The notes beneath the pieces are model-generated. The model did no database searches, was not told the DNA's origin, and worked only from the letters and a program-made list of their open reading frames with translations. Positions 21,776-41,968 of a stretch of 60,442 nucleotides of DNA are shown piece by piece (within the stretch, counting starts at the first letter, position 1; every line of letters starts with the position of its first letter). The stretch comes from Lachnospiraceae bacterium. Lineage in GTDB: Bacteria > Bacillota > Clostridia > Lachnospirales > Lachnospiraceae. Where the stretch lies: positions 1-60,442 of the forward strand of contig CAJTDK010000021.1 in NCBI GenBank assembly GCA_910575105.1, in the 5' to 3' direction. A program made the translations under genes and the position numbers.

Positions 21776-22057
21776 AAAGCCCTCTCATCTCTAAGAGACG
21801 AAAAGGCTTAACTTCCGTGGTACCACTCTTTTTCACGCAGCCCTATGCCGCATGCACTCATTGCTTCTGTAACGGGAAGGAAACCGCCCGTACCTACTTA
21901 CCGCTTTCGGAAAATGTCTTCCTGCCGGCAGCCGCACCTTCAGTCCGGGAACTCCGAGGCGAGTTGGGAGATTTCTGCCTGCTGCCTCGCACCCTCCGGC
22001 AGCTCTCTGAAGACATCCGTCTCTTACTATTCCTCTTCATCGCTTTTTCAATATACG
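21776..22057 (-). ncRNA. T-box riboswitch (leucine) upstream of leuS
   Basis: On the minus strand the leader shows the T-box sequence AGAGTGGTACCACGGAAG (complement of 21813-21830) in its antiterminator. It is followed by a terminator hairpin (stem within 21777-21810, AAGCC..GGCTT, then TTTAT). In stem I the specifier region reads CAA-CUC-GCC (CUC at the complement of 21961-21963), a leucine codon matching leuS. Uncharged tRNA-Leu should stabilise the antiterminator and switch on leuS. Confidence 0.9.
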
Positions 22058-22145: not shown

Positions 22146-22204
22146 GAATATAAGTAAAGTTACTGGATTTTCAGTAGAATATGATACATAAAGGAGAGTT
22201 TGCT

Positions 22205-22627
22205 ATGGTATATTTATTGACAGGTCCGAAAGGCAGCGGAAAAACGCAGCAAATGATTGAACAGGCTAACAAGAAAGCAAAGGAGTGCAACGGGAACGTG
22301 GTTCTGATCAAGAAGACACACCGTGATACCGCCAGTGTTGCATTCAACATCCGTACCATCTGTATGGATGACTACCCGGCGATCATCAACATTGACGGAT
22401 ACATTGGATTCTTATATGGGATGTACAGCTCTAATCACGATATCGAGTGCGTATTTATCGACGGCATCTTAAAGCATGCGGATATCTCCCTTGAGAATGT
22501 TCCTGCATTTATCGACAGGCTGAACCGGATCTCCAAGGACTGCGGCATCGAATTCTATGTAAGCATCAGCGCTGCAAAGTCGGATCTGGCGGGTGTAAAT
22601 TCCGAACATTGTGAGTATCTTAACTAG
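22205..22627 (+). CDS. Small P-loop NTPase-like protein, function unknown
   Basis: The start is the ATG at 22205 (MVYLLTGPKGSGKTQQMI), with AAAGGAGAG upstream; 140 residues. A Walker A motif GPKGSGKT lies at residues 7-14 and a hydrophobic-acidic strand VFIDGIL near residue 88 may be Walker B. No other domain is visible, and the protein is too short for a full helicase or kinase. The fold start resembles thymidine-kinase-like or PilT-like P-loops. It is divergently transcribed from leuS and stands alone, ending at the hairpin repeat. I do not recognise its function. Confidence 0.7.
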   Translation: MVYLLTGPKGSGKTQQMIEQANKKAKECNGNVVLIKKTHRDTASVAFNIRTICMDDYPAIINIDGYIGFLYGMYSSNHDIECVFIDGILKHADISLENVPAFIDRLNRISKDCGIEFYVSISAAKSDLAGVNSEHCEYLN

Positions 22628-22633
22628 TATGAT

Positions 22634-22779
22634 CCAACTTAAATGCCTTAATGTTTCACGTAGGATAAATTTTCAGATGCAAGGCGGCTAAATGAGGCGA
22701 TGCCGGTAACATCGTCGATTGAAGCCAACGCAGCAGATGGAAATTTAGACAAGTGAAACATAAGGTTATTTAAGTTGGG
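22634..22779. repeat. Hairpin repeat element, copy 1
   Basis: A 146-bp imperfect palindrome. The outer arms CCAACTTAAAT and ATTTAAGTTGG match perfectly, followed by CCTTA/TAAGG and TGTTTCAC/GTGAAACA. The inner strands ACGTAGGATAA and AGACAAGTGA recur in copy 2 near 30.7 kb. The element lies between the small P-loop gene and the convergent AEC-transporter gene. Confidence 0.75.
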
Positions 22780-22807
22780 TTATGCTAGACTGAGTCAGAA
22801 AAGCAAA

Positions 22808-22841
22808 AAGGAATCCGGAGCGGAAGTGCTTCGGATTCCTT
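22808..22841. terminator. Bidirectional terminator
   Basis: AAGGAATCCG at 22808-22817 and CGGATTCCTT at 22832-22841 form a perfect 10-bp stem between two convergent genes, with T-rich sequence on both sides. Confidence 0.7.
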
Positions 22842-22935
22842 CTTTGTTGCTTTTTCGCTATTTTTATTTCTATATTGCTCTTTTTCTTTCCTCCCAGTTC
22901 CAAAGCATACCGCCTTTTCTATTCACCGCAGGCTC

Positions 22936-23871
22936 TCAGGCCAGCGTCTCATAAAGCATGACCATCAGCGGCATCGTCACAATGCAGAAAATGATGGACA
23001 TCACATTGATGACACTGGCGTACTTGGAGTCCCGGTCATAGATCTGCGCAAGCTGCGTCACCATGGCTGCCGCCGGCGCTGAGGTTGCCAAAAATACCAC
23101 CAGTAGGATATCCTTCGCCTCCCTGTGAATCCCCAGCCCCGCCAGAGCGGAAAAGATGACCGCCGTCACTGCCGGATACACAAGCAGCCGGATAAAGCAT
23201 ACAAAGTAAGGGCGCTTGCGGCTGAATACCCACTTAAGATCCATATTCCCGATGACCATGCCGATGACAAACATCCCCGCCGTCCCGATCATGCCCCCAA
23301 ATCCCTCAAGGCAGGTGCCGATCACTTCAGGGATATGGATTCCCGCGGCAAAGAAGAACGCGCCCGCTATCATGGCGATGATATTCGGATTCATCAGGAT
23401 CTTTTTATAATCCCAGTCCTCCGTCTGCTGCCCGATCATGCGGCTTCCGTGAGTCCAGATCAGCATCGTCTGGACGATATTGTAAGCATTGGTATAAAAT
23501 ACCCATTCCATCCCCATGACTGCGGCTACCAGCGGGATGATCAGATTTCCCGCATTCGTGTAGATCAGCGAAGCCCTCTCGATGCTGTTCAGGTTAAGCG
23601 GCCTGCGAAAGAGGGCTGTCCATGCGATCATCAGGATATGTACCAGCACAGCGGCCGCAATTGCTAAAAGCAGCCCCTGTACCTTATCCTTCGTCAGCTC
23701 AATCTGAAAAGAGTAGACGACCATGCAGGGCGAACAGATATAGACGACCAGATTAGAGATTACCTTACTGTCCTCGCTCTTAAACAGCCCCGCCTTGACG
23801 CTTGCATACCCCGCCGCCACAAAAAGAAACAGTGATATGATCTGTTTTGCAAGCAGTATACTTAATCCCAT
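22936..23871 (-). CDS. AEC-family transporter (auxin efflux carrier type)
   Basis: A 311-residue, very hydrophobic protein with about ten membrane segments in two halves. The start MGLSILLAKQIISLFLFVAA and the motif YTNAGNLIIPLVAA near residue 105 are typical of the AEC family. Bacterial members export or exchange small carboxylates or amino-acid-like compounds; the substrate cannot be read here. The gene overlaps the 3' end of the preceding membrane-protein gene by 10 bp, so it is the last gene of the trkA-trkH operon. Its stop is near the hairpin repeat copy 1. Confidence 0.85.
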   Translation of the reverse strand: MGLSILLAKQIISLFLFVAAGYASVKAGLFKSEDSKVISNLVVYICSPCMVVYSFQIELTKDKVQGLLLAIAAAVLVHILMIAWTALFRRPLNLNSIERASLIYTNAGNLIIPLVAAVMGMEWVFYTNAYNIVQTMLIWTHGSRMIGQQTEDWDYKKILMNPNIIAMIAGAFFFAAGIHIPEVIGTCLEGFGGMIGTAGMFVIGMVIGNMDLKWVFSRKRPYFVCFIRLLVYPAVTAVIFSALAGLGIHREAKDILLVVFLATSAPAAAMVTQLAQIYDRDSKYASVINVMSIIFCIVTMPLMVMLYETLA

Positions 23872-25526
23872 GGCTCTTCCTTTTCATCCTTCTCATCCTG
23901 ATTATCGTCAGACGGAAGATCCCCGGCGATCTTCAGAGACATGACCGTATTGGCTTTCTCGTCTTCCTTATATTCCATCGTGATCTCCTGTCCGGTCTCG
24001 CACCTTACCACATCGATGAAGTCTACAACTGACGCATCAAAAATATCATCCGACCCTTCCACCATCAGATAATAGTGGGATGTCCCGTCGATGACAGCCT
24101 GCGCGATCTTCGTAATCCTTCCCGTGACTGTCTTGATCTCCCTGGTGTCCTTTTCCGCTTCCTTCACCCCGCTGCTAAGGAGCAGCTCAAGATAATTCTC
24201 CTCACACTGGCTGACACTATCCCCGACCGCTACGATCTGGTACTTCTGTACATTTACCATCGCATATTTTTTCACAAGCCCCGCGTCATCCTTAAGGGCG
24301 ATAAAATATGTCGGCTCATCGGATATATTGAGAAGCAGCGGAAATGTGGCCGTATACTTGAGGTTCTGCACCTGCCCTTCCGCCGACGACATGGCAGATG
24401 CCTCTGTCGCACCTTCCACCTTATAATATTTCGTCTCCATCGTCCGCTGATTGGACAGCATAAATCCTACGTTGGACTGGTCGCCGTTTACCGACGTGAC
24501 CCCGGTGTACATCCACACATCATCATCAAGGGCAAGATAATTATAGCCGTCCGTCGTCTCCAGGCAATCCTTCTGGCTCAGCACGCTGTTGATAAACCCA
24601 TGCTTTAATGTCCCGTAATAGTCAAACAGCTCCACAAGCAGATCCGCCGCGTATGCACGGTCGATCCATGACGGCGCATTTTCGATCTTATAAGTCTTGG
24701 TCTCACCGGTGATGGCATTGCAGAGAACGACCTTCCCTACCGTCTCGCCGCCGAACAGCCCGATATTATACTTCTTTACCGGAGCAACCCAGTAAGGAGT
24801 ACCGTTATCGTCGATCTCAAAGCTAAGTCCCCCGTAGATATAGGTCGGGTGGGCGAACCTGAGATGGCGGTATATATTCCGGTTAAAATACTCGCTCGTC
24901 GTATACTTCATCCCCTCCTCAAGCTTCACAAGCTCCGTAGTCTGGGTCGCCATATTGATCCGGATATAGGCCGGGATCCCCTCCGACTGGTTCGTAAACC
25001 ACTTAACCAGGCTTGCGTACCGCAGCGGAGACACTCTCACCGGATTATCCTTGTAGTTGATCTGGGTATAGATATCATCCACCTCGAACTGGGAAACCAT
25101 ATCCACCATGCTCCCCATCTTCCGGTCCCCCAAAATCACCGCCGTGTCACGGTCCAAAAGCGGTATCTTGTCAAAGGAAAGCTCCTCTATATCTTCCGTG
25201 AACTCGCCCTCATCTACCTTCATCAGCTTCTGGTACTTTTTCGCATTGATAATCGGAGAGGACAAAAGGCTGCCCGCCAGGTAGAAAAGCCCCAGCGCCA
25301 CGATCACTGTGCCGATCGCGCGCAGCCCCCTGTTCTCCTTCGCCTCACGGAACGACCGCATCTTTTTTTTGCTCATATAGACCAGAGCCGCCGCGATCAG
25401 GACCACAAAGATAAAAAACCAAGTATCCGAAGAGTGTATATTTATCGCAGGCAGTGAAATATAATAGTATATCCCGACTACGGCGACTGCCGCGGCCACT
25501 GCCAAAAGCTTCCATTTAGATTTCAT
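23862..25526 (-). CDS. Membrane-anchored protein of unknown function in the trk operon
   Basis: 554 residues with three N-terminal membrane segments (~8-27, 35-52, 72-92), then a ~440-residue soluble region that starts by closing into VSQFEVDDIYTQINYKDN and ends in an acidic tail (SDDNQDEKDEKEEPWD). The soluble region is rich in beta strands and aromatic residues; I see no enzyme motif. It starts 13 bp after trkH with AGGAGG and overlaps the AEC gene. Position suggests a role linked to ion uptake or envelope state. I do not recognise the family. Confidence 0.7.
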   Translation of the reverse strand: MKSKWKLLAVAAAVAVVGIYYYISLPAINIHSSDTWFFIFVVLIAAALVYMSKKKMRSFREAKENRGLRAIGTVIVALGLFYLAGSLLSSPIINAKKYQKLMKVDEGEFTEDIEELSFDKIPLLDRDTAVILGDRKMGSMVDMVSQFEVDDIYTQINYKDNPVRVSPLRYASLVKWFTNQSEGIPAYIRINMATQTTELVKLEEGMKYTTSEYFNRNIYRHLRFAHPTYIYGGLSFEIDDNGTPYWVAPVKKYNIGLFGGETVGKVVLCNAITGETKTYKIENAPSWIDRAYAADLLVELFDYYGTLKHGFINSVLSQKDCLETTDGYNYLALDDDVWMYTGVTSVNGDQSNVGFMLSNQRTMETKYYKVEGATEASAMSSAEGQVQNLKYTATFPLLLNISDEPTYFIALKDDAGLVKKYAMVNVQKYQIVAVGDSVSQCEENYLELLLSSGVKEAEKDTREIKTVTGRITKIAQAVIDGTSHYYLMVEGSDDIFDASVVDFIDVVRCETGQEITMEYKEDEKANTVMSLKIAGDLPSDDNQDEKDEKEEPWD

Positions 25527-25539
25527 AAATACCTCCTGT

Positions 25540-26985
25540 CTAAAATTGTTTTCTCCATATGGGGACAGCGAACAGCATCAGAAACGGGAAAATCTCCAGC
25601 CTTCCCGCCAGCATGTCAAAGCAGAACACCAGCTTGGAAAACACGGAAAACTGGGAAAAATTCCCCGCCGGCCCCACGCCGCCGATTCCCGGCCCGATAT
25701 TATTCAGCGTCGCCATAACCGAGCTGAACGTCGTCGCAAAATCCCGGTTATCTATCGCTATAAGTAAAATAGACACGATCATGATCGCCATATAGGCCAT
25801 CAGATATGAGCAGACCTTCCGCACCACATCCGTGTTCATCTTCTTGCCGTTCACCCGGATAATACTTACTGATTTCGGGTGCTTCATCTGCTTGAGCTCA
25901 CGCTTGATGCTCTTCAAAACGATCAGCACTCTGGACACCTTAATACCGCCTCCAGTGGACGACGCACACGCGCCGCAGATCATCAGCATCAGAAGGATGC
26001 ACTGGGAAAACATAGGCCACACCGCAAAATCCGCAGTGGCAAACCCGGTAGTCGTGATCACCGACCCTACCTGAAAGACCGCATGACGAAAAGCCTCAGG
26101 AATACCCGGGTACCGGCCGCTGATATTCATCGTGATCAACACCGTGGATATGGCAATGATCAGCACATATGCCCGCAGCTCCTCATTTTTCCACACCGGC
26201 TTAAAGTCCCGCAGGATCAGCAGAAAATACAGGTTAAAGTTGATTCCGAACAAGATCATAAAGACCGTGATCACCCCGTCGATATAGGCGCTTCCAAAGT
26301 GCCCCACACTCTCCGCATAATTGGAAAATCCTCCGGTCCCCGCCGTGCCGAACGCATGGACCAGGCTGTCAAAGACATTCATGCCGCCAAGAAGCAGAAG
26401 CACTACCTCCAGCGCTGTCATCCCGAAATAGATGCCGTAAAGGATCCGCGCCGTGGATGTCATCTTCGGAACCAGCTTCTCCTTCTCCGGCCCCGGCACT
26501 TCCGCCATCATCAGGTACATCGTGCTGCTCTTATCAAGGCTGGTGAGCACAAGCACAAACACCAGCACTCCCATCCCTCCTACCCAGTGGGTGAAGCTTC
26601 TCCAGAAATGCATACACTGGGAAAGCACCTCCACATCTGGAAGGATAGAAGATCCCGTCGTCGTAAATCCAGAGACCGTCTCAAAAAGTGCATCGATATA
26701 AAGCGGTATCTCCCCGGACAACGTGAAGGGAAGCGCCCCGAACAAAGACCACAGAATCCACGCCAGCGCTACGATAACAAGCCCTTCCTTCTGATAGATC
26801 TTCGTCTTCTCCGGCTTCTTTAATCCGGCAATCAGGTACACAACAAGCAGTACCGCAGACGGGATCAGGAAAGCAAGCCCCTCATGCTCCCCATACAGTG
26901 CACCTACAAACGCCGGGATGAGGAGCAGAAGCGCCTCCACTCCCAGCATCTTCCCTAATATATACCATATCATCTTTACGTTCAT
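25540..26985 (-). CDS. trkH: TrkH-family potassium uptake subunit
   Basis: 481 residues with 8-10 membrane segments and the four pore loops: ETVSGFTTTGSSI near residue 103, HAFGTAGTGGFSNY near 215, GSVITTTGFATADF near 310 and LNNIGPGIGGVG near 430. The repeated T-x-G signature is the K+ selectivity filter. TrkH is the pore of the Trk system, gated by TrkA, whose gene lies immediately upstream (13-bp gap). It is a second, separate K+ system in this window besides ktrB-ktrA. Confidence 0.92.
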   Translation of the reverse strand: MNVKMIWYILGKMLGVEALLLLIPAFVGALYGEHEGLAFLIPSAVLLVVYLIAGLKKPEKTKIYQKEGLVIVALAWILWSLFGALPFTLSGEIPLYIDALFETVSGFTTTGSSILPDVEVLSQCMHFWRSFTHWVGGMGVLVFVLVLTSLDKSSTMYLMMAEVPGPEKEKLVPKMTSTARILYGIYFGMTALEVVLLLLGGMNVFDSLVHAFGTAGTGGFSNYAESVGHFGSAYIDGVITVFMILFGINFNLYFLLILRDFKPVWKNEELRAYVLIIAISTVLITMNISGRYPGIPEAFRHAVFQVGSVITTTGFATADFAVWPMFSQCILLMLMICGACASSTGGGIKVSRVLIVLKSIKRELKQMKHPKSVSIIRVNGKKMNTDVVRKVCSYLMAYMAIMIVSILLIAIDNRDFATTFSSVMATLNNIGPGIGGVGPAGNFSQFSVFSKLVFCFDMLAGRLEIFPFLMLFAVPIWRKQF

Positions 26986-26998
26986 ATCTGCAAGGCTC

Positions 26999-28357
26999 CT
27001 AACCTAAAATATCACTGAAATTGCTGACAATATGATCTTTTGTCACCACCATAACACTATCTCCCACCTCTAAGTGGTCATCACCGTTAGGTACGATCAC
27101 CTTCCGCCTCCGCCCGATACATGCGATCAGGTTATTCTTCTTGATCGGAAGGTCCTTTAACGGCACGTTCGTATATGCGCATTCCTTCTTAATGATAAAC
27201 TCCAGCGCCTCCACCTTGCCCTGCACAAGCCGGTACATGGTCTCAACATTGGCACTGCTGTAGGAATTATTCCGTGCCCTTACATAGCCCATGATCGCAT
27301 CCGCTGTCGCGCTCTTGGCAGAAATAATACTGTCAATTCCCAGTCCTTCCACCATCTGCGCCCTGGTATCGTCATTCACCTTGGCAATGATCTTAGGCAC
27401 GCCAAGAGTCTTGGCAAAAAAGGACATGATGATATTCTCCTCATCCATCCCGGTAAGCGCCACAAAAGCATCCGTATCCGTAATCCTCTCTTCCATCAGA
27501 AGATCCTGGTCCGCCGCATTGCCGTTAATGATAGTCGCCTTGGGGAGCAGCTCACACAGCTCCTCGCACCGCTGCTCATTGCGCTCGATGATCTTTACCT
27601 TCATGCCTACCTGCAGAAGCTGCGATGCAAGATAAAAGCAGACATGCCCTCCTCCGCAGATGAGCACCTTCTTCACCTTGACATTCTTGCGCCCAAGGGA
27701 TTTGAAAAACGTCCTCAGATCCTGGTGGGCCGCCGCGATATGCAGGCGGTCTCCGGCTCTCACCACAAAGTTTCCGTCCGGGATATACACATCTTTCCCC
27801 CGCTTCACCGCACATACCAGTATCTTGATCTGAAACTTGCGGTAAACCTCCGCAAGGGAGATATCCGTCAGCGGCTGGTCCGCGCCCACCGCATACTCTA
27901 CCAGCTCCACACGTCCCTTCATGAACGTCTCCACCTTGCTGGCCTCCGGGAACAGCAGCACCCTCAGGATCTCATTGGAAGCCGCAAGCTCCGGATTTAC
28001 CGCCATAGAAAGGTGCAGATCCTCCTTCAGTATCCCGATCTGGCTGTAGTAGATCGGATTCCTCACCCTTGCGATCGTATGCTTCGCCCCAAGCCTTCTT
28101 GCGATAAGACAGCTTAACATATTCATCTCGTCGGCCGAGGCGCAGGCAATGACCAGGTCCGAATGCGGCACGTCCGCCTGCTTCATGATCTCTGCATCCG
28201 CTCCGTTTCCTGTAATACAGAATATGTCCATCTTATTCAGCGCGTCTTTAAGTTTCCCTTCGTTCTGGTCAATCAGCGTGATATCATAATTTTCTTCTGA
28301 CAACTGTATTGCAAGCTTATGACCTACTTTACCGTCACCAATAATTACAATTTGCAT
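26999..28357 (-). CDS. trkA: TrkA potassium uptake regulatory protein, two-unit form
   Basis: 452 residues with two tandem RCK units. Each unit has a Rossmann core (MQIVIIGDGKVGHKLAIQLS at residue 1; VLICGGGHVCFYLASQL near 230) followed by a C-terminal RCK domain. This is the long TrkA form that binds NAD(H)/ATP and gates TrkH. The gene heads an operon with trkH, an unknown membrane protein and an AEC transporter, and has GAGG upstream of the ATG. Confidence 0.93.
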   Translation of the reverse strand: MQIVIIGDGKVGHKLAIQLSEENYDITLIDQNEGKLKDALNKMDIFCITGNGADAEIMKQADVPHSDLVIACASADEMNMLSCLIARRLGAKHTIARVRNPIYYSQIGILKEDLHLSMAVNPELAASNEILRVLLFPEASKVETFMKGRVELVEYAVGADQPLTDISLAEVYRKFQIKILVCAVKRGKDVYIPDGNFVVRAGDRLHIAAAHQDLRTFFKSLGRKNVKVKKVLICGGGHVCFYLASQLLQVGMKVKIIERNEQRCEELCELLPKATIINGNAADQDLLMEERITDTDAFVALTGMDEENIIMSFFAKTLGVPKIIAKVNDDTRAQMVEGLGIDSIISAKSATADAIMGYVRARNNSYSSANVETMYRLVQGKVEALEFIIKKECAYTNVPLKDLPIKKNNLIACIGRRRKVIVPNGDDHLEVGDSVMVVTKDHIVSNFSDILG

Positions 28358-28425
28358 CTTCGTTCCTCTTTAATCTACATAATTTTATATTAAGCATAGT
28401 AGAGTATAGCACCTTTGCAAAAATA

Positions 28426-28449
28426 AGAAAAGCCCTCTCGGGCTTTTCT
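28426..28449 (-). terminator. Terminator of the EF-G-like gene
   Basis: AGAAAAGCCC and GGGCTTTTCT form a perfect 10-bp stem with a four-base loop, followed on the minus strand by TATTTTT. It separates the EF-G-like gene from the trk operon. Confidence 0.8.
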
Positions 28450-28505
28450 TGCTTTTTCTTTTCTTAACTTTTATCCTGCTGTCCGCTCCGTGACAGGCAA
28501 TATGC

Positions 28506-30581
28506 TTATTCCTCTGCTGCTCTCTTGGCGATCTCTGCCTCCTGAACATCCGACGGAGCCTGCTCATAGCGTGCAAATTCGTACTCGTAGGTTCCTCGGC
28601 CGCCGGTCATGGACCGGAGGGTCGTACAATAGCCAAACAATCCGGTCATCGGGATGTCAGCCTCAATCACCTGACAGCCGCCGGCAATAGGATTCATCCC
28701 CAGCACACGACCGCGGCGCTTATTCAGGTCTCCCATGACATCTCCGGTATAATCATCCGGAACAGTTACTTTAATCGAAGCGATCGGCTCAAGAAGAACC
28801 GGGCCTGCCTCCATGAATCCCTTCTTGAACGCCTGGATGGTCGCTGTCTTGAACGCCATCTCAGAGGAGTCTACCGGATGATAGGAGCCGTCATACAGCG
28901 TAGCTTTTACGCCAACAACCGGATATCCCGCCAAAGGCCCCTTGATCACAGACTCCTGAAGTCCCTTCTCAACTGCCGGGAAGTAGTTCTTCGGAACAGC
29001 TCCGCCTACGACTGTCTCTTCAAATACATATGGTGTCTCTAAGTCTCCGGAAGAAGCGAACTTCATCTTGACATGGCCGTACTGTCCGTGTCCGCCGGAC
29101 TGCTTCTTATACTTCGTATCCACATCAGAATTCTTGCGGATCGTCTCGCGGAATGCAACCTTCGGCGTCTCTAAGGTAACTGCACATTTATATCTCTCCG
29201 CCAGCTTGCTCACGGCGATCTCTAAGTGCTGGTCACCCATGCCGTAGAGAAGTGTCTGACGGTTCTCGCTGTCATTAACCGCCTTAAGAGTGATATCCTC
29301 AGCCATCATCTTCTGAAGCGCCTGAGATACCTTATCCTCATCCCCCTTATTGGCTGTCACATACTTCATATAAGTATAAGGCTTGGAATACTCTGTCTTT
29401 CCAAAAAGAAGCGGCATTGTCTTAGCAGAAAGGGTGTCGCCGGTCTTCGTATTGCCAAGCTTGGCAATCGCTCCAATATCGCCGGCAAACAGCTCGCTGA
29501 CCTCCACCGGCTTATTTCCGATCATGGTGTAGATCTTTCCAAGCTTCTCATCCGTCTCAGAGGAGGCATTGTAAAGAACATCCTCGCCTTTCAATACGCC
29601 GGAGCATACCTTTACGAAAGAATATTTGCCGATGAACGGGTCTACCATCGTCTTGAACACGTAAGCAGATTTTGCCTTTGCAAAGTCATAGTTAGCCTCA
29701 TAGATCTCATTGGTCTTAAGGTTCACACCCGCGCACTCTCTCCAGTCTGGACTCGGGAAGAATCTTACAATGTCAGATAACAGGTTCGCAACGCCCTGAG
29801 CCTGAATATTGGATCCCATAGCAACCGGAACGATGCTTCCGTCCATAACCTCTGTACGCATCGCCGCGCGGATCTCCTCCACAGAGAACTCCTCGCCTGC
29901 AAAATAACGCTCCATGAACTCCTCGCTGGTCTCTGCAACCGCCTCAAGAAGCTTCTCACGGTAACTCTCCACATATTCCATACAGTAATCCGGAATCTCG
30001 CACTCCTCCCGCTTTCCGATACCGGTGTAGCGCCTTCCGGCATTCTTGATAATATTCACATATCCGATCAGCTTCTCATCCTCACGGATCGGAGAAAAAT
30101 GAGGTGCGATCACTTTTCCGTATTTCTCTGTCAGATCCTCAACAACCTGACGGAAGCTGGCGTCATCCACATCCATCTCCGTCACATAGATCATACGCGG
30201 CAGGCTGTACTTGTCACACAATTCCCATGCCTTCTCTGTCCCTACCTCTACGCCTGCCTTTCCCGATACAACGATCACCGCAGCATCCGCAGCACTGACT
30301 GCCTCTTCCACTTCTCCGACAAAATCGAAATATCCCGGAGTATCCAGCACGTTGATCTTCGCCTTCTCCCATTCAATCGGAATCAGGGCTGTGCTGATGG
30401 AAAACTCACGCTTCTGTTCTTCTTTGTCAAAGTCACTGATCGTATTCCCGTCCGTAACTTTACCCATCCGGTTCACCGCGCCAGATACATAGGCCATAGC
30501 CTCTGCAAGACTTGTCTTCCCGCATCCGCCGTGTCCTAAAAGAACCACATTTCTGATTTCGTCCGTTCTATAAACTTTCAT
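28506..30581 (-). CDS. EF-G paralogue (elongation factor G-like GTPase)
   Basis: A 691-residue translational GTPase. The G1 motif reads GHGGCGKTSLAEA near residue 16 instead of the AHIDAGKTT of canonical EF-G; G3 is DTPGYFDFVGE near 79, and G4 is unusual (YVTEMDVDD where N-K-x-D is expected). Domains II to V follow, including the domain IV start (GGHGQYGHVKMKF) and the C-terminal region (GRGTYEYEFARYEQAPSDV). This is the EF-G-like second copy common in Clostridia; its role may be ribosome recycling or a tetracycline-protection-like function. It stands alone with its own promoter and terminator. The main fusA is not in this window. Confidence 0.85.
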   Translation of the reverse strand: MKVYRTDEIRNVVLLGHGGCGKTSLAEAMAYVSGAVNRMGKVTDGNTISDFDKEEQKREFSISTALIPIEWEKAKINVLDTPGYFDFVGEVEEAVSAADAAVIVVSGKAGVEVGTEKAWELCDKYSLPRMIYVTEMDVDDASFRQVVEDLTEKYGKVIAPHFSPIREDEKLIGYVNIIKNAGRRYTGIGKREECEIPDYCMEYVESYREKLLEAVAETSEEFMERYFAGEEFSVEEIRAAMRTEVMDGSIVPVAMGSNIQAQGVANLLSDIVRFFPSPDWRECAGVNLKTNEIYEANYDFAKAKSAYVFKTMVDPFIGKYSFVKVCSGVLKGEDVLYNASSETDEKLGKIYTMIGNKPVEVSELFAGDIGAIAKLGNTKTGDTLSAKTMPLLFGKTEYSKPYTYMKYVTANKGDEDKVSQALQKMMAEDITLKAVNDSENRQTLLYGMGDQHLEIAVSKLAERYKCAVTLETPKVAFRETIRKNSDVDTKYKKQSGGHGQYGHVKMKFASSGDLETPYVFEETVVGGAVPKNYFPAVEKGLQESVIKGPLAGYPVVGVKATLYDGSYHPVDSSEMAFKTATIQAFKKGFMEAGPVLLEPIASIKVTVPDDYTGDVMGDLNKRRGRVLGMNPIAGGCQVIEADIPMTGLFGYCTTLRSMTGGRGTYEYEFARYEQAPSDVQEAEIAKRAAEE

Positions 30582-30623
30582 ATCTTGCTGCCTCCTTGTT
30601 CTTTAGAAAAATCTCATATACAC

Positions 30624-30652
30624 ATTGTACTAAAAATTCACGCACATTACAA
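30624..30652 (-). promoter_or_regulatory. Sigma-A promoter of the EF-G-like gene
   Basis: On the minus strand TTGTAA (complement of 30647-30652), a 17-bp spacer and TACAAT (complement of 30624-30629). The transcript would start about 40 bp before the gene. Confidence 0.65.
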
Positions 30653-30685
30653 CTTATTTATTCAAAATATCCATCATTATAGCCA

Positions 30686-30872
30686 TAGTACATTGAATAA
30701 TAAGTATCTAGTACATCGAGAAATAAGTATCCGGCTATATCACGCAGGATAATTTTTCGGATACATGGCAGATTTTCGACGGCGCAGCGGCGGCTACAGC
30801 TAGAAAAGTCTAACGCAGTAGCCGGAAAATCAGACAAGTGATATGGCTAGTTACTTATTATTTGATGTACTA
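30686..30872. repeat. Hairpin repeat element, copy 2, with duplicated left arm
   Basis: An imperfect palindrome from TAGTACATC at 30709 to GATGTACTA at 30872. A 23-bp extra copy of the left arm (TAGTACATTGAATAATAAGT at 30686) stands directly beside it. The inner strands ACGCAGGATAA and AGACAAGTGA match copy 1, while the outer arms differ in sequence but remain complementary. It lies between the divergent EF-G-like and tyrA genes. Confidence 0.75.
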
Positions 30873-30888
30873 GGCATCCCGGCTTTCA

Positions 30889-30917
30889 TTGACAAAACAG
30901 GAAATTGAATATAGAAT
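30889..30917 (+). promoter_or_regulatory. Sigma-A promoter of tyrA-aroA
   Basis: TTGACA at 30889-30894 and TAGAAT at 30912-30917, spacer 17 bp, about 55 bp before tyrA. Confidence 0.75.
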
Positions 30918-30973
30918 GATATTCGTAAAATGCAGCTGACCCGCGGACAGCATATCATTCAGGAGGACTATTC

Positions 30974-32068
30974 ATGAAAGAGAAGGTTGGTTTTATCGGT
31001 CTGGGATTAATCGGAGGCTCTATCGCGAAGGCCATCCGCCAGTACTATCCCGAATACGAGATCGTAGCTTTTGATAAGAATAAGGAAGCGCTGGCGCTGG
31101 CGACCCAGGAATCCGTCATCGATGTGGCCGCCACCACCATAGACGGTAATTTCCATCAGTGCAGTTATATTTTCCTGTGCGCGCCCGTTGTCTACAATGC
31201 GGCATATCTGAAACAGATGAAGGAGTACCTTCACGACGGCTGCATCCTGACCGACGTAGGCAGCGTAAAGACGAATATACATAAAGAAGTGGAAGCTTTG
31301 GGCATCGGGAAATATTTTATCGGCGGACACCCTATGGCAGGTTCGGAAAAGACCGGATTTACCAACTCCAAAGCCATGCTGATTGAAAATGCATATTATA
31401 TCCTGACCCCCTCCGACGAAGTGCCGCCAGATAAGATCAGCCGTTTTGAAAAGCTTATCCAGAGCCTGCGCGCCATCCCGCTGATCCTCGACTATGGCCA
31501 GCACGACTATGTGACCGGCGCCATCAGCCATCTGCCCCACATCATTGCCTCCAGCCTGGTGAATTTTGTAAAGGATAATGATACCGGGACAGAGCTGATG
31601 AAAAATCTTGCGGCAGGCGGTTTCAAGGACATTACCCGCATCGCCTCCTCTTCTCCTACCATGTGGCAGCACATCTGCCTCACAAACCGGGAGAATATCT
31701 CCGGGATACTCGGTAAATATATCGAATCCCTGCAGGATTTTAAAGCGCTGATCGACAGCTCCGACGGGCAGAGCCTTTACCGGAATTTTGATTCTTCCAG
31801 AAATTACCGGAACGCAATCCCCTCTGCCTCGGCAGGCCCTATCAAAAAGGCTTACGCGGTATACTGCGATATCATCGACGAGGCCGGAGGAATCGCCGCT
31901 ATCGCCACTATCCTTGCCTCCAACGGACTGAATATTAAGAATATCGGGATTGTAAACAACAGAGAATTTGAAGAAGGGGTTCTGCGTATAGAATTCTATG
32001 ATGAGGCATCTTCCAAAAGAGCCGCACAATTACTGCAGAAATTCAGGTACATTGTATATGAGCGTTAG
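30974..32068 (+). CDS. tyrA: Prephenate dehydrogenase with C-terminal ACT domain
   Basis: 364 residues. An NAD-binding fold opens with VGFIGLGLIGGSIAKAIRQ at residue 4; the prephenate region includes IGGHPMAGSEKTGF near 114 and ISHLPHIIAS near 182. The final ~70 residues form an ACT-type regulatory domain (GGIAAIATILASNGLNIKNI). It converts prephenate to 4-hydroxyphenylpyruvate, the tyrosine branch of aromatic synthesis. Its 3' end overlaps aroA by 11 bp. It has a good promoter 55 bp upstream and an AGGAGGA site. Regulation by tyrosine through the ACT domain is likely from family knowledge. Confidence 0.94.
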   Translation: MKEKVGFIGLGLIGGSIAKAIRQYYPEYEIVAFDKNKEALALATQESVIDVAATTIDGNFHQCSYIFLCAPVVYNAAYLKQMKEYLHDGCILTDVGSVKTNIHKEVEALGIGKYFIGGHPMAGSEKTGFTNSKAMLIENAYYILTPSDEVPPDKISRFEKLIQSLRAIPLILDYGQHDYVTGAISHLPHIIASSLVNFVKDNDTGTELMKNLAAGGFKDITRIASSSPTMWQHICLTNRENISGILGKYIESLQDFKALIDSSDGQSLYRNFDSSRNYRNAIPSASAGPIKKAYAVYCDIIDEAGGIAAIATILASNGLNIKNIGIVNNREFEEGVLRIEFYDEASSKRAAQLLQKFRYIVYER

Positions 32069-37724: not shown

Positions 37725-37790
37725 ATTCGTAACGGCATTCCTAAGTTTGCTGCGCAAAAGCCACCCCTCATTCCTGTATCATGTTCTTAC

Positions 37791-37833
37791 GGAATGCGCA
37801 GCCAGTGCGCATTCCTGACCCATGAACAGTAAC
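37791..37833. repeat. Hairpin repeat, family GTTRCTRTKCAYGG, copy B
   Basis: GGAATGCGCA at 37791-37800 pairs perfectly with TGCGCATTCC at 37806-37815. Directly behind it CCATGAACAGTAAC at 37820-37833 is the reverse complement of the family arm. It adjoins the stop of the XRE gene. Confidence 0.5.
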
Positions 37834-41691: not shown

Positions 41692-41926
41692 ATGCAGTGA
41701 GGTGCCTTACCGGTGCGTGCTTTGCCTATAGACTCAGCAGAGCCTTACCGGACAGGATAATAGACAAACCGGGTGAGATTCCCGTACGGTCGCGCCGCTG
41801 TAATGGAAGAGATGCGAAGGGATGTGACAAAGACATCCTGCGCAGGCGATGTCCCAATATGTCACTGGGCAACCGGGAAGGCGAGACATTGCGACGACGC
41901 CTGAGTCAGAAGACCTGCCCCTGCAT
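41692..41926 (+). ncRNA. Cobalamin riboswitch
   Basis: The conserved boxes are clear: GAGGTGCC near the start, the B12 box context GTCACTGGGCAACCGGGAAG, and GCCTGAGTCAGAAGACCTGC near the end. ATGCAG at 41692 pairs with CTGCAT at 41921-41926 as P1. It precedes cbiM and should shut off the cobalt-import operon when adenosylcobalamin is plentiful. Confidence 0.93.
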
Positions 41927-41933
41927 ACAGTTT

Positions 41934-41968
41934 ACACGTGGTTACGCCGTATAGCCAGGTGTTTTTTT
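41934..41968 (+). terminator. Riboswitch-controlled terminator
   Basis: The hairpin ACACGTGGTTA..TAGCCAGGTGT is followed by seven T (41962-41968), right after the cobalamin riboswitch and 29 bp before the cbiM start. This is the expected expression platform for transcription attenuation. Confidence 0.65.

Follow-up and report, generated by a model that had tools for sequence, protein, structure and literature searches.

ERIC of Enterobacteria, also named IRU or RU-1, is a small intergenic mobile palindrome of 127 bp, the mover of which is left open in the accessible parts of reviews. In its printed consensus, GCAAGGCG...CAACGCAGC is present, and GCAAG and AACGCAG each occur twice (accessible part of PMC2759123). 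In the Bacillus cereus group, bcr1, an intergenic repeat resembling a miniature inverted-repeat transposable element (MITE), is given as 147-167 bp long (accessible part of PMC2267715), lies frequently within the untranslated regions of mRNAs, and is described as confined to one species group, as judged by the title of a reference (accessible part of PMC3446304). The accessible text on REPINs and RAYT describes hairpins in single-stranded DNA or mRNA, compensatory changes and mobilisation in trans (PMC3116915), and that on RUP describes a non-autonomous element with a TA target, for which mobilisation in trans by an IS630 transposase (IS630-Spn1) is proposed (PMC2229807). The window studied here is a 60,442-nt stretch of DNA from a Lachnospiraceae bacterium (contig CAJTDK010000021.1 of assembly GCA_910575105.1), which carries two long intergenic hairpins. 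These hairpins are non-autonomous mobile elements and belong to a MITE superfamily that is new and widespread and whose structured core is conserved.

The first hairpin (w1) occupies positions 22624..22788 (165 nt) and the second (w2) positions 30708..30873 (166 nt), both on the forward strand and both extending from CTAG to CTAG; the sense strand of w1 was assigned from its core. The original prediction, made from the window alone, had located both correctly, the true ends being slightly wider. The extra left-arm copy that it reported beside w2 is present at 30686..30708 (+), with 87% identity to 30709-30731 and 2 mismatches in the end-pattern search, and is probably a leftover of a further element. 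In both w1 and w2 the arms are 36 nt each and 81% complementary. The RNA folding z-scores are -12.2 for w1 and -8.5 for w2, and none of 200 shuffles folded equally well.

From the outside inwards, an element of the family consists of the target repeat, an arm of 30-34 nt, loop 1, a helix of ~15 pairs, loop 2 and an apical stem. Subfamily-specific inverted arms surround a structured core of ~115 nt in an element of ~165 nt. An arm length of 30-34 nt was found in 50 of 75 arm pairs, namely those with a recognisable end, the other 25 giving no TA/TWA-plus-G end as demanded by the script. In loop 1, C[GCA]G[GA]T faces A[GA]C[AA]G, and in loop 2, C[AA]G[GC] faces [AA]C[GCA]G. The two loops represent one CGCAG/CAAG motif in opposite orientation, ~15 bp apart. 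As read off the sequence and placed by alignment, all on the forward strand, loop 1 of w1 comprises CGTAGGAT at 22659..22666 and AGACAAG at 22747..22753, and its loop 2 comprises GCAAGGC at 22679..22685 and AACGCAGC at 22727..22734. The corresponding strands of w2 are CGCAGGAT (30743..30750) and AGACAAG (30832..30838) for loop 1, and ACATGGC, a variant of GCAAGGC (30763..30769), and AACGCAGT (30812..30819) for loop 2. The inner strands ACG(T/C)AGGATAA and AGACAAGTGA, which had been predicted to face each other, are opposed in both copies in the sequence and in the RNA fold. The pairing given here for loop 2 is provisional, as RNAalifold paired it in a shifted register.

The exact pattern of the two inner strands occurs at five places in the genome of origin, as compared with none for the reversed control. 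These five copies fall into two subfamilies, one including w1 and L003 and the other w2, L001 and L002. A covariance model built from the five copies (R1) scored w1 with 160.7 and w2 with 178.8 bits and gave, at E <= 1, 38 rows in the genome of origin, which correspond to 27 places after joining both strands; 25 of the 27 have E <= 0.001. At the latter threshold, 17 of 61 genomes had a match (16 of 60 when the genome of origin is left aside). Hence, w1 and w2 are by no means the only copies. R1 contains little sequence information and is able to score long hairpins generally; the match sequences were therefore inspected directly, and the majority were found by eye to bear related inner strands. 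The E-values of R1 and of the model R2 described below are rough.

A pattern of three short motifs detected at least 120 stretches over the genome collection, as compared with ~7 expected by chance according to our own arithmetic, and in 99 of 122 matches within these stretches the helix between the loops is kept at >=75%. A core model (R2) was built from an alignment (A4) of 50 rows, comprising w1, w2 and 48 loci found by the pattern; CGCAGGAT, GCAAGG and AACGCAGC were obligatory in these 48 rows. At E <= 1e-4, R2 matches 114 of 120 loci (94/100 and 20/20), of which 48 were training loci; L065, L067, L119, L126, L144 and L158 gave no match, and L100 is borderline with 28.9 bits. In an unfiltered search over the window, w1 and w2, both among the training rows, scored 102.2 and 81.2 bits, respectively, and everything else 10.2 bits or less.

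The carriers include Lachnospiraceae, Family XIII, Oscillospiraceae, Selenomonas and a coriobacterium and, further, Deltaproteobacteria, Binatia, Gammaproteobacteria and Alphaproteobacteria (Methylobacter, Rheinheimera, Shewanella, Thalassomonas and an alphaproteobacterium) and Verrucomicrobia. Many of them are metagenome bins, and the isolates include Rheinheimera D18, Shewanella, Thalassomonas, Blautia massiliensis and Lachnospiraceae A2. Per-genome counts with R2 at E <= 0.01 in 11 genomes gave at least 20 matches in the genome of origin, at least 48 in Binatia, at least 88 in Methylobacter, at least 50 in Shewanella benthica, at least 34 in Lachnospiraceae A2, at least 70 in Blautia RGIG5147 and 2 to 10 in each of five other genomes; up to 150 candidates of each genome were scored, and the copy numbers are possibly underestimated. 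One family member (L042:95-263, genome G056) lies within a 16S rRNA gene in the manner of an intervening sequence, the Rfam small-subunit rRNA match spanning positions 1-351.

A known Rfam RNA was ruled out by the lack of any family match on w1 or w2, both at the gathering threshold in the window and at E <= 10 in 22500-31000. Nor is an origin of the window copies from phages or plasmids indicated by blastn, which gave no match to phages for w1 or w2, none to plasmids for w2, and just weak partial matches to plasmids for the arms. The single pattern match in a viral contig (L218, 26.7 bits) is probably due to chance. No recognisable description of the family was found in the published literature, the coverage of which was thin for subscription journals, so that one may be in print.

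Mobility is evident from the insertion sites. An exact empty site was found for L022, which splits a gene found uninterrupted in plasmid relatives: an Enterococcus plasmid has a single CTAG where the genome of origin has CTAG-element-CTAG, and an Agathobacter relative has TTAG. The elements w2, L006, L008 and L019 are missing from the congener stretches examined, the exact edges being blurred by intergenic divergence. At the w1 site, the TAG stop codon of the upstream gene comes from the left CTAG of the element, and two congeners finish this gene with neither CTAG nor element. At the identical CTAG in two congeners, G002 and G003 (L279 and L280), the start of an element with another arm type is present. 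In Methylobacter, both ends were visible in 28 of 32 fetched stretches, and the 3-bp flanks are identical in 24 of the 28. TAA or TTA is present on both sides in 25, and the two sides agree in 24 of these (p 8e-7), which demonstrates target duplication in this subfamily. In a strain A2 subfamily (L326, L332, L335 and L337), TA was read by eye on both sides in 4 of 4. In the genome of origin, L018 and L020 have different arm types and share one CTAG (C3:32443-32766), with a right-end remnant adjoining; hence, elements also insert at each other's ends. The family thus works like a bacterial MITE, being short, non-coding and multi-copy, with terminal inverted repeats and target duplication or an empty site; all features of that kind are present except for a known autonomous parent.

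That pairing preserved despite changed sequence reflects a selected structure had been proposed from w1 and w2. These belong to different subfamilies, and the pair alone is therefore unable to demonstrate covariation; the proposal holds in the wider set. In A4, 90.9% of the cells pair, as compared with 67.2% in shuffles, and 22 of 27 pairs are changed on both sides, as compared with 19.1 in shuffles, 1 of 500 of which attained 22. Compensatory cells amount to 299 versus 88 in shuffles, and the covariation score is 0.611 versus 0.188, structures slid along the alignment giving 0.133 or less. The core is under structural selection, and the outcome was not one of arms losing their pairing. The search pattern imposed the letters of loop 1 on its 5' side and those of loop 2 over most of either side, and left free AGACAAG, the 3' side of loop 1. 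The letters of this strand are kept, in order, in 47, 48, 47, 49, 38, 47 and 50 of the 50 rows, and in the helix adjacent to it both partners are changed in 13 of 16 pairs. The copies, the covariation, the empty site and the duplications support both halves of the original prediction, that of a mobile element that is small and non-autonomous and that of a family that is selected for its structure and has no match in Rfam.

The structure is strand-specific. In 83 arm pairs (39 of 122 were excluded as being paired below 60% or having the same arm key), G.T mismatches number 174 and A.C 97 (p 3e-6; 49 elements versus 17), and A.G mismatches number 120 and C.T 36. In the core helices, the respective numbers are 73 versus 19 and 21 versus 2. 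With respect to genes, 19 elements between tandem pairs are sense and 28 antisense, and downstream of genes 45 are sense and 54 antisense (of 135 elements, 39 lacked a usable neighbour and 15 lay inside called open reading frames). On one Binatia chromosome, no replication-strand bias was found (22/40, p 0.64; 40 of 48 matches listed). As there is no clear orientation preference, a mutational strand bias should largely cancel. The excess of G.T over A.C on one strand indicates that it is one strand that folds, either as RNA or as DNA in single-stranded form, and the asymmetry was taken as a sign that selection acts on one strand in its folded state. For w2, the core helix formed under RNA parameters and was absent under DNA parameters, a mild hint from modelling in favour of RNA.

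On balance, we consider it probable that the hairpins are MITE-type transposons inserted at TA-centred targets by an unlinked transposase, with the core kept by selection on one strand. An unlinked, DDE-like enzyme acting in trans would insert the ~165-nt element at CTAG or CTWAG, with duplication of TA, TTA or TAA. The core would be maintained through selection on a single strand in its folded form, RNA being more likely than single-stranded DNA, and a putative factor recognising the double loop may aid survival or spread of the element. Several results weigh against this explanation. Neither an autonomous copy nor a recurrent neighbouring transposase was found. The IS630-type family DDE_3 is present in 11 of 25 genomes, including one (G001) with no element match, DUF4096 in 2 of 21 and DDE_Tnp_4 in 0 of 19, and with such patchy or nil presence these families do not track the elements. 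In Blautia, the flanks agree in just 6 of 10 (20 stretches fetched). In the apical stem, the mismatches are balanced (10 versus 9), and the lack of sense bias with genes gives no indication that the elements act in cis in mRNA. Short copies that retain both arms but hardly any core or none (L343-L346 in Methylobacter, L189 and L193 in the genome of origin) apparently arose by internal deletion, and arms without a core may therefore persist or move.

A single-stranded-DNA element, the folded strand of which is recognised at the loops by a HUH/Y1-type or other recombinase, as proposed for REPINs and RAYT, would account for a structure on one strand and for a core conserved better than the arms, and G.T pairs are tolerated in DNA as well. 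The genome of origin has two Y1 transposases and one fragment; however, no such hairpin was found in the stretches read around the Y1 genes, and these genes were set aside as candidate carriers. The family resembles REPINs in having a hairpin with compensatory changes but differs in its flanking duplications, REPINs being two REP sequences beside RAYT genes. The matching left and right duplications in 24 of 25 Methylobacter stretches would not be expected for Y1 insertion. These data, together with the absence of replication-strand bias on the Binatia chromosome and of the w2 core helix under DNA parameters, make such an element unlikely. It is similarly improbable that the hairpins are domesticated as 3' elements of mRNA, acting in stability or as RNase sites, with the core kept by host selection. 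Placed copies have a median distance of 19 nt to gene 3' ends versus 89 nt to 5' ends, and a role in mRNA decay is published for ERIC in Yersinia, as far as the accessible text extends. Core-like hairpins lie directly 3' of one gene, which we take to be groEL-like, in Thalassomonas and Shewanella (L123, L164, L169 and L175). However, CTAG includes a stop codon, and the target alone may explain the proximity to 3' ends; the sense and antisense numbers downstream of genes show no sense bias, and the congeners examined lack the copies of the genome of origin.

An ordinary MITE with a functionless core, in which conservation reflects recent spread and template-switch repair of palindromes alone maintains the pairing, appears very unlikely. 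In its favour, many invariant core letters were imposed by the search pattern, and in L305, the exception among the Methylobacter stretches, the right arm is a perfect inverted copy of the left arm including the flanking TAA, as expected from template switching at a palindrome. Repair of this kind may help changing arms to remain complementary, and covariation of the arms therefore counts for less as evidence; the argument rests on the core helix and on the strand bias. The conservation of the pattern-free AGACAAG and the changes on both sides of its adjacent helix speak against a functionless core, and strand-specific mismatches are not produced by repair alone.

With regard to the unlinked transposase of the preferred explanation, end-pattern searches revealed no autonomous copy in the genome of origin, in Binatia, in Methylobacter (100 of 260 places listed) or at further loci. 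Inspection by eye of the 25 clusters listed from the open reading frames of 171 loci brought no transposase to light. A 1,393-bp long copy in Binatia (L180:8391-9783) is a hairpin with a transposase gene inside, presumably IS110-like, and was hence rejected as the autonomous parent. A 1.35-kb candidate in Methylobacter was rejected as lacking a transposase. Of seven distant end pairs, two correspond to the 1,393-bp copy, and the five other loci showed no transposase-like open reading frame by eye. Other Binatia copies bear additional palindromes of the CCCGGG type.

CTAG is a target of IS630. The family resembles RUP as a non-autonomous element at a TA target and differs from it in that DDE_3 occurs in fewer than half of the genomes searched and one subfamily duplicates TWA. 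In the group of Tourist-type MITEs and PIF-Harbinger and IS5-like transposases, TWA is duplicated in a CTWAG context and the ends begin with GG. One subfamily of the hairpins likewise has TWA duplication in CTWAG and ends starting with GG, but DDE_Tnp_4 and DUF4096, which were searched together with DDE_3, are nearly or entirely absent.

Like ERIC, the elements are intergenic palindromes; they differ in length (~165 nt versus 127 bp) and in the arrangement of the loops, which are tandem in ERIC and opposed here. The GCAAGGCG...CAACGCAGC arrangement and the doubled halves of the ERIC consensus each occurred in 0 of 20,000 shuffles and a looser form in 58, the motif having been picked post hoc. 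The core model R2, which includes no enterobacteria, gave no filtered match to ERIC at two E. coli loci, and the unfiltered score of 5.8 bits (E 1.1) is at background level. We regard ERIC as a relative in its motif but not as a member of the family. The printed sequence of YPAL/RU-2, in the accessible part of PMC2759123, shows no loop motif, and this repeat was rejected as a relative. The likeness to bcr1, by description alone, concerns its size and MITE-like character; it differs in being described as specific to one species group.

In the window, w1 lies between convergent open reading frames (22181-22627 on the forward and 22936-23871 on the reverse strand) and w2 between divergent ones (28506-30581, reverse; 30974-32068, forward), as had been described. 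Both contexts, together with a separate terminator-like hairpin at 22805-22844, exclude a plain terminator and agree with the earlier statement that the hairpins are not simply terminators. Rfam matches revealed a T-box leader at 21791-22049 (-), upstream of what is presumably a leucyl-tRNA synthetase gene, and a cobalamin riboswitch at 41724-41936 (+). A different repeat of ~62 bp at 37772-37833 came to light as the flank of another element (L009); it has 31 further places among the matches listed for the genome of origin and copies in G001.

It is possible, though at present a tentative proposal, that the double CGCAG/CAAG loop is a recognition module for one widely conserved bacterial factor. 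The hairpins would then constitute a phylum-spanning class of mobile hairpins with interchangeable arms and transposases, ERIC being its enterobacterial branch. If so, the conserved unit would be the folded core rather than the transposon ends, which would reverse the usual logic of MITEs. Bacterial MITEs have mostly been described per species group and recognised by their ends, whereas members of the present family, from Clostridia to Verrucomicrobia, are recognised by the folded core. With a covariance model of the core, two questions become accessible to experiment, namely the binding partner of the structure and the enzyme by which such repeats are moved.

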